A stretch of DNA of 22,245 bases from a virus: positions 1-22,245 of the IMG/VR virus record IMGVR_UViG_3300027771_000117, one strand, 5' to 3'. How positions within the stretch are numbered: position 1 is the stretch's first letter; every line of letters begins with the position of its first letter. This document shows, in pieces, positions 281-19,647 of the stretch. The position numbers and the translations under genes were made by a program. The notes below the pieces were generated by a model, which saw nothing but the letters and a program-made list of their open reading frames with translations, did no database searches and was not told where the DNA came from.

Positions 281-363
281 ATAACTTTGAGGCATACTAA
301 AGATACCCTAGGGTTGTTCTTATACCTATCAACCCTATAGGGCAACTTAATTAATTGTGCCAT
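259..363 (-). CDS. Possible 34-residue peptide after terminase (weak)
   Basis: An ATG at 363 opens a 34-codon frame ending in TAG at 259-261. A GGAAA motif lies about 9 bases upstream of the ATG. It occupies the place of T7 gene 19.5, a small protein between the large terminase and the right terminal repeat. The residues (MAQLIKLPYRVDRYKNNPR at the start) show no resemblance to gp19.5 that I can see. The frame runs straight through the phage promoter and one direct repeat. It may well be fortuitous, because a 34-codon frame is unremarkable in AT-rich DNA. Confidence 0.15.
   Translation of the reverse strand: MAQLIKLPYRVDRYKNNPRVSLVCLKVISTLLPS
306..342 (-). other. Hairpin overlapping the right-end promoter start site
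   Basis: CCCTAGGGTTG (306-316) and CAACCCTATAGGG (330-342) are inverted arms with a 2-base bulge and a 13-base loop. Read on the minus strand, the arms are followed by a weak pyrimidine tract only (TATCTTTAG), so it is a poor intrinsic terminator for the terminase transcript. A transcript starting at the predicted +1 (335) would begin GGGUUG and could fold at once with CAACCC. That would give a 5' stem-loop. Confidence 0.5.
336..352 (-). promoter_or_regulatory. Phage RNA polymerase promoter, phi-OR-like
   Basis: On the minus strand positions 352-336 read AATTAAGTTGCCCTATA, followed by GGG at 335-333 as the likely start. Fifteen bases (336-350) are identical to the site at 19631-19645. By my own alignment it matches the SP6 promoter at 12 of 17 positions and the T7 promoter at 10 of 17, including the CTATA block before the start. 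It sits about 45 bp after the large terminase stop, facing away from the gene, as T7 phi-OR does. In T7 phi-OR lies at the right genome end and is linked to replication and concatemer processing. The cognate polymerase gene is not in this window. Confidence 0.7.
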
Positions 364-397: not shown

Positions 398-2062
398 TCA
401 GAACCACTTATCGCCTACAGATTTCTTACCACCAACAGCTTGGTCCATGAACCTCTGTATCTCCCCATTGAAAGCATCGAGCTTCTGTTGGGCAGCTATA
501 GTCTCTGAGTCCGCATCCATCTGTTCAGTCCAGTAGTTCACTGCCATCGCTAGAGCTTCTAATCTATCGTCATGGATGATTGCACCACGGTCTTTAGTCA
601 GCCTAGTCATCTGGTAGAACAAACTGTACGAAGGTTCTGGAGCACTCTCGTAGTCTTCCTTAATCAGCTTCTCGTCAATGATAAGACGGTGCTGCATCAT
701 CACAGGTTCAAGCGTATCGATGATACGGACTTCCTTCTGTGTGTTATGTCTGACTTCTTCTATGGATACAGGGTAGGCCTTGTTCACGAATGGAGATAAT
801 AGTTTGGAGAACATACCGTCACCAAAGTTACTCTCTACCACTATCATGCTGACCTTCTCTATCTTCGCTAGGTTCGCTAGTTTGGTTAGAGTCTTGTCAT
901 CATAGCCACCTTTGAAACCACCACACTGGGTAGCGTAGAGATAACCATTCAACATCTTAACGACTGCATAGGCTGTCTCGTCCTTACCACGACCAGAAGG
1001 GTCAATAGCAAGTACAGCACCTGTGTACTCGTACATCTCATCAGAGAACCACATGGGTCTATAGAACTTGTCACCAGTGAAGCCCACAACAGGGACATCT
1101 TGGACAATCTGTGCAGGTCCAGAGGCCCACGCTAGGTCAGCCCAACCCTTCCTAGGGTTAAGTGCAGCTACGCATAGGTCAGATAGTTTCAATGGATACT
1201 TATCAGCATCAGATAGTGTTGTGTCCAGCATGAATTGCAGTGCAAAACCTGCCTTACCATAGGAAGCTTCACGCTCCATTAGGTCTATCTTAGTGAATCT
1301 ATCAGGTTCTGTAGGCATACCCTGCTGGTCGGCTCTACGATGCTCTATGAAGGGCGCTAATCTTCCTTGATACATTGCCGCTTGCTTGTCTGTAGGATAG
1401 CGAGAGGGCCATATACGTATCTCATAGCCACGTTCTGGGAGCAGGTTATAGATGGACATCTCAGTCTGTGGAGTACCTAGGTAAATCACACGTCCATTGG
1501 GCTTAAGAACAGCGTCAAACTCCTTGATTGCCTCGGATAACTTGTCACGCATAGTCTGGGTAGCAGAGTTGTTACTAACCTCCACGTCATCAGCGATTAT
1601 TGTGTTAGCACGAGAACCTGTGAGCTGGCCGTTGATACCCACTGACTTAACGCTTGGGGAATGGTCGGGTAATGAAGGCCCAACATCAAAAGCAATGACA
1701 GAATCACGCTGACCATTTTTAGTTCTAAGGTGTGAGAGTATTTCGATTTCATTAATAAGGCGCTTAGTAAAGGTAGAGAAGGCATCAGCACGTTCTTTAG
1801 AAGCTGATACTACGAGAATCTTGTGTTGAGGGTCACAGTAAAGAAGCCACACCACGTATGCTGAAGTAATCCAAGACTTTCCTATACCACGGAAGGCTTC
1901 TACCACGCAGCGCCTAGGGCCTGTCTGTAGATAACTACCCATGTCGTACTGGATTGGTGTGGGGTCTGGTAGATTTAGAGTGGACCATACTATCCATAGG
2001 AACTTACGGAAGTCTTTCTTGATTGGGTCGTTGTCTACCAGAGTAGTATTAGGTGTAGCCAT
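398..2062 (-). CDS. Large terminase subunit (DNA packaging ATPase/nuclease), T7 gp19-like
   Basis: This 554-residue protein is the packaging motor. Its ATPase drives DNA through the portal and its nuclease cuts the concatemer. It closely resembles T7 gp19 across its length. Visible landmarks are Walker A AFRGIGKS (56-63), the coupling segment SASKERADA (87-95), Walker B IIADDVE (155-161), and the nuclease acidic residues in AIDPSGRGKDE (352-362, Asp354), Glu410 in VVESNFGDG, and HDDR (497-500). The stretch RDSVIAFDVGPSLPDHSPSV (119-138) is nearly the T7 one. The start is preceded by AGGT five bases upstream and lies 7 bases after the small terminase stop, so the two are probably cotranslated. 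It is the last confident gene of the late block. Confidence 0.98.
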   Translation of the reverse strand: MATPNTTLVDNDPIKKDFRKFLWIVWSTLNLPDPTPIQYDMGSYLQTGPRRCVVEAFRGIGKSWITSAYVVWLLYCDPQHKILVVSASKERADAFSTFTKRLINEIEILSHLRTKNGQRDSVIAFDVGPSLPDHSPSVKSVGINGQLTGSRANTIIADDVEVSNNSATQTMRDKLSEAIKEFDAVLKPNGRVIYLGTPQTEMSIYNLLPERGYEIRIWPSRYPTDKQAAMYQGRLAPFIEHRRADQQGMPTEPDRFTKIDLMEREASYGKAGFALQFMLDTTLSDADKYPLKLSDLCVAALNPRKGWADLAWASGPAQIVQDVPVVGFTGDKFYRPMWFSDEMYEYTGAVLAIDPSGRGKDETAYAVVKMLNGYLYATQCGGFKGGYDDKTLTKLANLAKIEKVSMIVVESNFGDGMFSKLLSPFVNKAYPVSIEEVRHNTQKEVRIIDTLEPVMMQHRLIIDEKLIKEDYESAPEPSYSLFYQMTRLTKDRGAIIHDDRLEALAMAVNYWTEQMDADSETIAAQQKLDAFNGEIQRFMDQAVGGKKSVGDKWF

Positions 2063-3328: not shown

Positions 3329-4960
3329 TTATAATGTGTAAGAGCCTGAGCCAGTGAATTTAACTATCGTGTCTGACCCTGATGTACTCACGGAGACACT
3401 GCCAGAGGAAGTGCCTGAGTAACTGGCTGTTGGCATTCTTAAAATCACTACACCAGAACCACCGCTTCTTTTAGCGCCACCACCTTGTCCACTATTAGCT
3501 GCTCCTGTTCCACTTCCCGGGGAACCTCCTTGGCTATAGACTACACTTGAACCTGTGATACTGTTGGAGACACCTGCGCCAGCAGAGTTAAGTGAACCAG
3601 AGCCTCCTGCTCCACCTCCACCACCACCATTATAAGGAGAGCCAGCTTTTCCGTATCCTCCACTGTTACCTTGCCCAAAGACTCCTGAGTTGTTGTTGGT
3701 TTCAGCCGCTGTATAACCAGCGTTACCCCCACCTGACCCTCCTGAGAGACCCCAGCGCCAGGTATAAGGTATACCACCACCACCACCGCCACCCATGGAG
3801 CTCTTATTCAGCTCACCGCTTGTGACAGAGCTGCCACCACCACTGTTACCATTGTTTCCGGTTGTGGAAGAACCACCTGCACCCACAACTATGCTTAGAA
3901 CAATGCCTACTGTAACAGTCTGAGTACCTGCTAAATAACCACCAGCACCGCCTCCGCCCATTCTAGAACGTGACTGGTTCGCGTTGGGACTACCACCACC
4001 ACCACCACCGCCTGCGGCAACTAAATAGGTCAGGTCAAACGTATCAGGTCCTACAGTTTTCCATGTGAAACTACCGTCACCGTCAGACCGTAGAAACTCA
4101 TCATTAGCACCATTACCTGATACATTTAGATGGGCTGCATCAATGCTGTTGTCAACGTAGTGCTGAGAGTTAATAAGATTGTTGGAAATGCTAGAGCTGC
4201 TCACAACAGCAGAAGGCCCCGTAGCTCCTGTATTGCCTTGAGGGCCTGTATTACCTGTGGGTCCTGTGTTGCCTTGAGGGCCTTGAGCGCCCGTGGAACC
4301 TGTATTACCAGTGTTGCCTGTGGGACCTACACCACCAGAAGGACCTGTAGAACCTGTAGGACCTGTGCCACCTTGAGGACCAACAGTACCTTGAGAACCT
4401 GTAGCACCTTGAGAACCTGTTAAGCCTGTAGCACCTTGAGGCCCTGTAGAACCTGTAGGTCCTTGTTCGCCATCATCTCCATCTGCACCAGCGTTACCTT
4501 GAGGGCCAGTAGTACCAGTGTTTCCTTGAGAACCAGTAGGACCCGTAGAACCAGTAGGACCCGTTGGGCCATCATCACCGATAGGACCTTGAGCACCTGT
4601 GGAGCCTGTGTTTCCTGTAGGACCTGTGCCTCCAGTTGAACCAGTGGGGCCTGTGTTACCTGTTGGTCCTTGAGAACCTACATCACCTTCAATTCCTTGA
4701 GAGCCTGTAGCTCCAGTAGAACCTGTATTACCTTGTGGGCCTTGTGAGCCTGTAGCTCCTGTAGAACCTGAGTTACCCTTTGCTGCCATTAGCTGCCACA
4801 CGGCTGCTTGAGCCGAAGGGACAGTGCCAGCAGCAGAGTCTTGTAGTGCTGCGTATGAAGCGCCATTGTATTCAACAGCATCAAAGGTTTCGTAAGCTGT
4901 CGCAGAGGACCACTGGCCTTTCCATGCGATACGTACCTTACCTATATTTAAAGTTGGCAT
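3329..4960 (-). CDS. Collagen-like tail fiber with glycine-rich adhesin end
   Basis: The 543-residue protein has four parts. Residues 1-60 hold W-x(7)-Y-x(4)[13 protein letters not shown], a pattern like the small carbohydrate-binding-type modules seen in phage fibers. Residues 62-248 are 63 uninterrupted Gly-X-Y triplets, often GPT, GNT, GST or GPQ, which should form a collagen triple helix. Residues 252-310 are a linker with [14 protein letters not shown]. Residues 311-508 are a glycine-rich domain, [12 protein letters not shown] to GSGVVILRM. Domains like this form stacked polyglycine II helices and expose receptor-binding loops in phage adhesins. A short beta-like tail follows. The ATG overlaps the upstream fiber stop as TAATG, so the two are translationally coupled. 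It is probably the distal receptor-binding part. Confidence 0.85.
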
Positions 4961-6249
4961 TAGATTGTCACCTCTAGTTCACCGTTAGAATTTATTGAGA
5001 AGTCTTGGTCTGCTGCGCTACCGTAATATTCGATAGTGAGCATTCCTGTTGTTGGGTCCATGTGGAACTTACCGAAGGCGAGGCCTAATGCAGTAGGTCC
5101 CATAGAACCTGTTGGTCCTAGTGAACCTGTAGGGCCTAGTGGACCTTGGTCACCATCTGGGCCTTTGTTACCTAAGTCTCCTTGAATACCTTGAGGACCG
5201 TCTGGGCCTAGTGGTCCTGTAGAACCTGTTGGTCCTTGTGAGCCTGTAGCTCCTAATGGACCGTCACCACCAACAGGGCCTTGAGAACCTGTCAGACCAG
5301 TTGGGCCTTGTTGACCTGCCTCGCCTGTTGGACCCATAGGGCCATCCCCACCTTCGGGGCCTTGTGAACCTGTGCCACCTGTAGCACCTAAAGGACCTTC
5401 GTCACCAACAACACCTTGAAGACCTGTTGGTCCTACTGGGCCTGTTGTTCCACGAGGACCTTGGTCTCCTGTGACACCTTGGTCTCCTACAGCACCTGTG
5501 TTACCAAGTTCACCTTGAATACCACGAGGGCCTTCAGGACCTATAACACCTTGAGGACCGTTTGGACCTTGAGGACCTGTAACACCTGTTGGGCCTGTAG
5601 CTCCTACGGGGCCTTGGGGACCTTCAGATAGAGAGAAGGTAAGCTCACCAGTGTTTGCATCGTATGCCACAGAACCTGTAGCTCCGTATGGAAGTGATGT
5701 TAAATGAGTGGTTAAGCCATAAAGCTCATCACGTATCTGAGTAACGTCACTAGCTTTGATGATTACATCAGTGTGCTTAGTTACTATGTCTGAATGTCGT
5801 GTGATTACATCTGTACTCACGCCATCAGCGTAAGCTTTAGTTACTGCATCATTGTCCTCAGTAGGTGTAGGTAGGTTAGTTAAGCGCCTACCTTCAGCAT
5901 CGAAGATACCTTCGGGGGTTAACTTAATTGCTTCATCAGCAGCATCAAAAGCTTCTTGAGCTAGATGAAATAGCTGACTACTATCTGCGTCTAGTGTTGA
6001 TTCGTTAAGTACCGAGCCGTCTTGGAAATCCACATTACGTGAGGTGCGGTTGGTTACTCGTCTTATGTCTACCACAGAGCTTGTTGAAGGCGCTGTAGTA
6101 ATGGATATTCGGCTTGAATCAAGCCATGTGAATGGACTAGCTGTTCCATCAACTGTAACTACTACATCATCTTGAGATAGATATAGGAAGGACACATTGA
6201 AGGTCGAAGTAGTTCCGTCACCTGTGTAGTGCACAAAGGATAAGGCCAT
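4960..6249 (-). CDS. Tail fiber, T7 gp17-like N-terminus with collagen-like shaft
   Basis: This 429-residue protein carries the T7 gp17-type tail-attachment domain at residues 1-110. Its landmarks are the [17 protein letters not shown] start, [20 protein letters not shown] (62-81) and [18 protein letters not shown] helical linker (about 130-190) follows. Residues 210-384 are 59 uninterrupted Gly-X-Y triplets, and about 45 residues close the chain. It lacks the pyramid and tip domains of T7 gp17 (553 residues), so it probably serves as the proximal anchor and shaft. It starts just after a terminator and has only a weak GAGA ribosome site. It is coupled by TAATG to the second fiber gene. Confidence 0.92.
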
Positions 6250-17686: not shown

Positions 17687-19216
17687 TTATTCATTTCCTT
17701 GTGGTTGTTGTTGCTGCTGTTGCATAGCTGCGTCCATCATTTGTGGAGCTAGCTGTTGTCCAGTTTGCATCATCATTGCTTGCTGCTCTTCTTGTTGCAT
17801 CTCTTCTTGAGATTTAATCAAGCCACCCATGTCCATACCTAGGGAAGTACCAACACGAGTGATGTAATCACCAATGTTCATATACTTCTGAATCGCTTCA
17901 GGTCCTAGTGGAGCTAGATGGTCAAGCATTGCAGCTAATTTATTTAAGTCATGGCCTCGGCCTAAAGCCTCAAGTCCAGTAACGATAGTTGGAGACACCA
18001 AACCCTTTGGCAATTGCGGAACTTTCTTCTGCTTTTGCATCTGGAGTAATAGGCGGTTTACTAATGGGAGTTGGAATTCCTGACTCAAGATTGAATAGAT
18101 ACCACCAAGGGCATCTTCCAATTCGGAAGCCATGTAGCGAATCTCTTCAGCTGTCACTCGTTCAGCTTTACGCTGGACTGAGGAATTCATAAGGAAGGCA
18201 AAGGACAAACGCTCTTTGATTTCCTGTGAGGATTGGAAAGCTATCTGCATATCGCCAGACTTCTGGACTTGCAGGGTGCTTACATCGTTAGCGTCACCTT
18301 CGCGGATAGCACCATTAGGGGCTTCAGCTAGGACTCGTGCCCGTGTCGTACCATTAGGACGTACTAAGAATAGTACCTTGGCACTAGCGGCAGCGGCTTC
18401 AACGATAGCTTGTGTAAGAGTCTCAAGTGAATTTAAGTCACCTTGATATTCTTCTACATAGCCACGACCATATGACTCACCGTCAATGCGGCTTAGTCGT
18501 AATGGAATCCAAGGGGATTTGTCTAAAGGAAAAGTACCTGTTGCTTCAGGAACTGGGATTCCAGCCACTTCTTGTGACACATTCCACTTACCATCCATAC
18601 GGACGATATGTGTGAACAGAGCTACAGGTTCATCTTGGCTAGTGTCTTCATCAGACGTTTCTAACAAGTCACGTATTTCTTCAGGCAAGGCACTAGGTGA
18701 CACATCTTCTTTAGTGATGATTTCTAGTGGATTACCCATAGGGTCACGCTTCATAACGTAGCGGTCTAAGTGGAATACTCTCATGCCACCTTTATCAGGT
18801 TGGTATAACAGTACGTTGCCTGCAACTAACAGGTGTTTAATAGCTTCAAATGCAGCAATACGAGTTGAAGAGGCTTCAATCTCTGACATCACGGCACGTT
18901 CAATTGAGGATAACGCTTCTTCAACTTCTGCCCTTGCACCTTCTTCTTGGGCTAATTCCTGTAACTTAAAGTCATCCACAGTTAAGCGGAAGAACGGTGA
19001 GTTAGGTGGAAGTAGAGCCAGCAACATCTTTGAAGATAAGTTGTTTACACCACGTGCGCCAATACCTTGGAACGGCGTGTATAACTTTGAATGTGCTGAA
19101 TGCCCATCAGGAGGTAGAAGAGAAGGAATGGTCAGCTTGGCTGCATCCCTAGCTCTATCAAGGAAAGGTTGACGAGCCGCTTCCAAACGCTCATAGCGTT
19201 GGCGTATAGCTGTCAT
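17687..19216 (-). CDS. Portal (head-tail connector) protein, T7 gp8-like
   Basis: The 509-residue protein would form the dodecameric portal through which DNA enters and leaves the head (T7 gp8 is 536). Characteristic parts are YERLEAARQPFLDRARDAAK (8-27), the T7-like TIPSLLPPDG, and TPFQGIGARGVNNLSSKMLL (47-66). Later come the helical IVEAAAASAKVLFLVRPNGT segment and RVTAEEIRYMASELEDALGGIYS. The C-terminal 40 residues are Gln- and Met-rich low complexity ending in PQGNE. The start codon lies 6 bases after the stop of the gp7.3-like gene. The ribosome site (AAGAAG) is weak, suggesting translational coupling. Confidence 0.97.
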   Translation of the reverse strand: MTAIRQRYERLEAARQPFLDRARDAAKLTIPSLLPPDGHSAHSKLYTPFQGIGARGVNNLSSKMLLALLPPNSPFFRLTVDDFKLQELAQEEGARAEVEEALSSIERAVMSEIEASSTRIAAFEAIKHLLVAGNVLLYQPDKGGMRVFHLDRYVMKRDPMGNPLEIITKEDVSPSALPEEIRDLLETSDEDTSQDEPVALFTHIVRMDGKWNVSQEVAGIPVPEATGTFPLDKSPWIPLRLSRIDGESYGRGYVEEYQGDLNSLETLTQAIVEAAAASAKVLFLVRPNGTTRARVLAEAPNGAIREGDANDVSTLQVQKSGDMQIAFQSSQEIKERLSFAFLMNSSVQRKAERVTAEEIRYMASELEDALGGIYSILSQEFQLPLVNRLLLQMQKQKKVPQLPKGLVSPTIVTGLEALGRGHDLNKLAAMLDHLAPLGPEAIQKYMNIGDYITRVGTSLGMDMGGLIKSQEEMQQEEQQAMMMQTGQQLAPQMMDAAMQQQQQQPQGNE

Positions 19217-19434: not shown

Positions 19435-19620
19435 TTACTCCGAGTCGGGGTTAGTTTGTACGTCATTGACGTGAGTGAGAAAATTAATTAAGTCGTACAT
19501 ACCTCTAGTCTTCTGAATGTCATCATGAGATGCAGCCAGAGTTCTATCAGTGATGGGAAAGAATTCCTTAAGAGCTTTTATTAACTCAGTTGAGACAACG
19601 GGGAATTTGTCAATAGTCAT
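19435..19620 (-). CDS. Small protein of unknown function, first gene of the head operon
   Basis: The 61-residue protein (MTIDKFPVVSTELIKALKEF at the start) is soluble and mildly acidic, with two predicted helices around 10-20 and 33-50 (DDIQKTRGMYDLINFLTHV). I do not recognise a named family. Small proteins of similar length with a FPxVxxELIxxLxExFP-type start are common before the portal region of marine T7-like phages. The reading frame is real: it has AAGGAAG four bases before the ATG, sits 10 bases after the predicted promoter start, and is packed against the next gene with a 5-base gap. Confidence 0.8.
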   Translation of the reverse strand: MTIDKFPVVSTELIKALKEFFPITDRTLAASHDDIQKTRGMYDLINFLTHVNDVQTNPDSE

Positions 19621-19630
19621 AAGACTTCCT

Positions 19631-19647
19631 TATAGGGCAACTTAAAA
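19631..19647 (-). promoter_or_regulatory. Phage RNA polymerase promoter for the head operon
   Basis: On the minus strand positions 19647-19631 read TTTTAAGTTGCCCTATA, followed by AGGAAG. Fifteen bases are identical to the site at 336-350. It fills the gap between the phoH stop (19648-19650) and the first head gene. By T7 spacing the start would be A at 19630, as in T7 phi-2.5, which also starts with A followed by GG. The leader would then be only about 10 bases, with the ribosome site at its very 5' end. Two matching copies at functionally sensible places are the main evidence. Confidence 0.75.

Follow-up and report, generated by a model that had tools for sequence, protein, structure and literature searches.

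In the promoters of phage T7 the stretch from -12 to -6 reads CGACTCA. The promoters of the Pseudomonas phage LUZ100 were mapped by ONT-cappable-seq, an RNA sequencing approach (PMC10134795), and a model of autoregulation has been published for the same phage. For the Vibrio phages phiA318 and AS51 a 2014 paper gives the promoter consensus AATAAAGTTGCCCTATA, with the specificity located at -12 to -8 (PMC4099482). The GTTGCC block of the two sites described here, which the original prediction held to be undescribed, had already been published with this consensus. We propose that both sites are, very probably, promoters read by a T7-type single-subunit RNA polymerase (RNAP) that the phage itself encodes; one would drive the head and structural operon, and the other is a phi-OR-like site near the genome end.

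Gene content of the window

The window, i.e. the whole 22,245-base stretch of DNA analysed, is an IMG/VR virus fragment of a T7-like phage that carries neither an RNAP gene nor tRNA genes. On the minus strand, nrdA, nrdB and phoH are followed by the first site, two small ORFs, the portal, scaffold, capsid and tail genes, the genes of internal virion proteins and collagen-like fibres, a holin-like gene, terS, terL and the second site. Pfam backs nrdB, phoH, portal, capsid, holin and terL, while the remaining names are putative, assigned by gene order and resemblance. The first gene of the head operon is a 61-amino-acid ORF (19435-19620, minus strand) without a Pfam family; the portal (head-tail connector) protein (17687-19216, minus strand; PF12236) is predicted to be driven from the head promoter, and the large terminase subunit TerL is encoded at 398-2062 (minus strand; PF22530, tblastn). 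Two adjoining long ORFs at 3329-6249, the first of them after the internal virion genes, are rich in collagen-like G-x-x repeats, have many tandem repeats at the DNA level, and are probable tail fibre genes. The isolates nearest to the window by terL are Rhizobium phages, LUZ100, a Limnohabitans phage and Roseobacter phages; by the capsid, the nearest is LUZ100 (61%).

The repeated promoter-like core

The core TTAAGTTGCCCTATA occurs exactly twice in the window, at 336-350 and 19631-19645, both times on the minus strand and, as predicted, as exact copies in gaps, which belong to the mere 3.9% of the window that is non-coding. Both conform to the layout of T7-type promoters, i.e. about 17 bases with a TATA-like block at -4 to -1 and a class-specific block at -12 to -5. 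With the core taken as -15 to -1, transcription is predicted to start at 335 (G) and 19630 (A), the same +1 positions as in the original prediction. The copy upstream of the head operon takes up most of the 27-base gap 19621-19647 and is followed by a short leader, AGGAAGTCTT (19621-19630, minus strand), in which a Shine-Dalgarno-like AGGAAG, read from the sequence, lies directly 5' of the first head-operon ATG; AAGGA is kept in relatives. The end site lies 47 bases past the terL stop, after terL and near the genome end, as phi-OR does; the same place is occupied in relatives and in LUZ100, whose mapped phi8 follows terL. Two features of the sites speak against the promoter reading: the start base changes from G to A at the head site, and there is no copy upstream of the capsid gene of the window, a place at which LUZ100 and phiA318 do have a promoter.

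Two further features were seen near the end site. Downstream of it, near the genome end, a 62-base unit is present twice at 182-305 (80% matches), and the start of the predicted end transcript (335-311, minus strand) could form a GGGTTG/CAACCC hairpin, which L096 and L293 share. A conserved hairpin at this place was dropped as a candidate, as it is clear in the window, L096 and L098 but not in the majority of relatives.

The 15-base repeat by itself is weak evidence, because similar repeats and matches are common in shuffled and simulated sequences: a same-strand repeat of at least 15 bases appeared in 24% of 400 Markov simulations, and a search with up to three mismatches returned at least two matches in 20 of 100 shuffles as well. 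A chance repeat without function, for which the first figure speaks, is nevertheless extremely improbable; it is contradicted by the position of the copies, by the conservation of the two places in relatives and by the CTATA ending, as a repeat of at least 15 bases ending in CTATA was found in none of the 400 simulations. In the search proposed with the original prediction, a third copy, with up to three mismatches allowed, is absent from the 22,245-base record; further copies are present elsewhere in the relatives.

Homologous sites and promoter classes in relatives

The relatives are metagenome fragments, and records very near the window may be missing from the searches that yielded them. 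In the gap that corresponds to the head site, IMG/VR relatives carry promoter-like cores of other classes, namely ATAATTGCATTATA (class B), TTAAAGTTGTACCATA, CAACTGTCGCACTATA and CAAGTGTAGCCCTATA, and in most of the relatives inspected a class-specific core, followed by a G-rich start, is found after terL. It is the retention of a promoter-like site at both places, even with an altered sequence, that by this comparison lifts the pair above chance, and the predicted phage-specific promoters before the head operon and after the terminase gene, the latter phi-OR-like, are supported by these conserved sites.

The differences between close relatives are confined to few bases. The post-terL site of L096 has the flanks of the window's site around a core that differs at -11, -6 and -5, and the head site of L050 shows the same three changes. 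L047 encodes a portal protein 100% identical to that of the window, yet it has a class B promoter; a coordinated change of promoter class among phages that share the same portal protein is new.

The sites of a genome change class as a set. G003 (IMGVR_UViG_3300030059_002474), a close relative of the window, has class B at five places: downstream of terL, on both sides of RNAP, past an amidase gene and upstream of the head operon. The copy that follows RNAP and the one that follows the amidase gene have one mismatch each; E-class and G-class genomes likewise carry one class across these places. G021 and G022 carry the window's promoter (class A) as exact copies at three RNAP-side places, next to a T7-type RNAP gene. 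All these copies (two in the window, three in G021 and five in G003) lie in gaps and have the same direction as the genes. Among 31 sites compared, those of one class agree fully (100%) from -12 to -6 at whichever place they lie, a count for which classes were assigned by core beforehand and whose strength lies in the comparison of unlike places in one genome with like places across genomes. Between homologous sites of unlike classes in this set, identity falls to 0.21 at -12, 0.30 at -11, 0.66 at -9, 0.61 at -6 and 0.36 at -5.

The polymerase and its specificity loop

The RNAPs of the promoter-carrying relatives are of the T7 type by both sequence and fold. The single-subunit RNAP gene sought by the original prediction is absent from the window fragment itself and present in G021 and G022, together with the same promoter. 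G021 spans much of the early half that the window lacks, is syntenic with G003 and has a similar G+C content (44.8% vs 45.1% in the window). The window phage likely carries a G021-like RNAP, an inference in which the tie between the window and G021/G022 consists of promoter, synteny and G+C content, with no contig joining them.

In the RNAP model the specificity loop corresponds to a beta-hairpin (731-758) with a tip of low confidence, and in G021 its sequence is KTSINGTLVYLRDK. The RNAPs of G021 and G003 are 76% identical overall but only 55% identical in the loop, which includes six residues, RDKTST/NSNSPL (750-755 in G021), that distinguish the class A from the class B enzymes. Within classes, by contrast, the loop is 86-100% identical (86-95% in G, 95-100% in B and E) as against 73-96% for the whole RNAP, and two class B enzymes with 84% overall identity have the entire loop core in common. 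Loop class and promoter class correspond one to one in five groups; as the promoter classes are lineages, this match amounts to about five independent cases. From lineage to lineage, variation at the homologous sites falls at -12, -11, -9, -6 and -5 and accompanies that of the loop.

The same result bears on the possibility that the gaps hold host sigma-70 promoters or binding sites of a regulator. An AT-rich block with TATA and the location of both sites upstream of or between operons would suit such elements; however, neither place has a sigma-70-like site on the minus strand, and the class-variable bases are those that track the specificity loop of the RNAP, hence we consider this explanation very unlikely.

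Under the promoter reading, the site at 19631-19645 would start transcription of the head and structural operon, while the end promoter, by analogy with the phi-OR position, probably serves replication or packaging. The full genome would have about five sites, two flanking the RNAP gene, one past the amidase gene, one upstream of the head operon and one downstream of terL. The stretch from -12 to -6 would be the same at all of them because a single RNAP specificity loop reads them all, and closely related phages would have different classes because all sites switch along with the loop. Such phages provide a natural series of polymerase-promoter pairs among close relatives, with a three-base switch (-11, -6, -5) at every site plus a few loop residues; the joint change of a promoter set and its polymerase thereby becomes directly testable, and the pairs are candidate orthogonal polymerase-promoter pairs for expression tools.

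Attachment site and foreign promoters

G021 contains an integrase gene (Pfam) adjoined by a tRNA-Arg 3' end (attP core), and a gene which, by its position, we take to be MarR-like. Class A, B, E and G contigs all have this tRNA-Arg 3' end. The class G contig L301 (IMGVR_UViG_3300027771_000307) begins, within positions 1-60, with tRNA-Arg(ACG) sequence joined to the left end of the phage, whereas its sisters L302 and L313 have attP at this place; the start of L301 resembles a junction between prophage and host, an artefact of assembly at the edge of the contig being the alternative. A host call by a scan for the tRNA attB was abandoned, as this tRNA end is too common, and the longer L301 junction sequence has matches at two MAG loci only. 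None of the seven genomes searched for a relative of the RNAP, which include L363 and L351, yielded one, in a search that had no positive control and proves little.

In the interval that separates attP from its own RNAP gene, the class B phage G003 carries exact E-class and G-class cores (L309:9415-9460), 34 bases apart and in the direction of RNAP, with 18 and 19 bases identical to the sites of those lineages. No second IMG/VR contig has this pair, which may be left over from past promoter changes or serve as an answer to rival phages. One could go further and suppose that in this group of integrase-encoding T7-like phages the class switches fast and as a set, because lineages sharing the tRNA-Arg attachment site gain by ignoring each other's RNAP, while some carry the promoters of others ahead of their own RNAP gene to answer anyway; we regard this as a rather unlikely scenario. 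If true, the RNAP of an incoming rival could activate a prophage already in the cell by way of foreign promoters of the G003 type. Literature searches of open-licence papers returned no direct precedent for promoter switching or for a prophage answering a foreign T7-type RNAP.

Comparison with known phage transcription systems

The Vibrio phages phiA318 and AS51 (Kaohsiungvirus, Colwellvirinae) have the core TTAAGTTGCCCTATA as well, in many copies that are read by a T7-type RNAP (PMC4099482). Promoters are annotated at most of these places in the GenBank records of phiA318 and AS51, and in IMG/VR many copies turned up in records that are identical to the Vibrio phages Vp670 and phiA318. A private polymerase-promoter pair, as originally predicted, thus stands only among close relatives, where each class has its own loop, and not with respect to phiA318/AS51. 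In other respects phiA318 differs: it has many more copies than the window, including one before the capsid gene, and identity is 28% between its RNAP and that of G021, 37% with the window's TerL and 34% with its portal. The window phage shares the promoter consensus of Kaohsiungvirus, but its virion genes, like the RNAP of G021, are not closely related to those of that genus, which on these comparisons places it outside the genus of phiA318.

The identity of the 15-mer, together with AATTAA upstream of many phiA318/Vp670 sites as well, could suggest that the promoter was imported with the RNAP from a Kaohsiungvirus-like Vibrio phage and that the system is that of phiA318. We find such an import hard to credit: the RNAP of G021, found with this promoter in the window's clade, is 76% identical to that of G003 as opposed to 28% to that of phiA318, and only three core bases (-11, -6 and -5), set in matching flanks, separate the window from class B relatives, which looks like a local change. 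Because the promoter is identical while the RNAPs are only 28% identical, it probably arose convergently in the window's clade and in phiA318. A third phage group is represented by G032 (IMGVR_UViG_3300021197_001204), whose RNAP is 29% identical to that of G021 and which has the exact promoter TTAAGTTGCCCTATAG at L451 and L464 (6166-6181 and 16792-16807), one copy being just past the RNAP gene. That three phage groups have the one 15-mer next to RNAPs of just 28-29% identity has the appearance of convergence between promoters. G021, G032 and phiA318 have an arginine at a nearly equal place in the loop, where the alignment is uncertain.

With T7, the window has in common the CTATA block, the size of the promoter and one copy past the terminase gene (phi-OR); it differs in AGTTGCC at -12 to -6 and in having no copy before the capsid gene. 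LUZ100 uses another promoter, AATTACCACACAG, its RNAP is 34% identical, it has a promoter before the capsid gene, and its starts are measured while those proposed here are predicted. Five of its mapped promoters are nevertheless at the places seen in the relatives (on either side of RNAP, past the amidase gene, upstream of the head block and downstream of terL), and it shares the MarR and integrase genes before RNAP.
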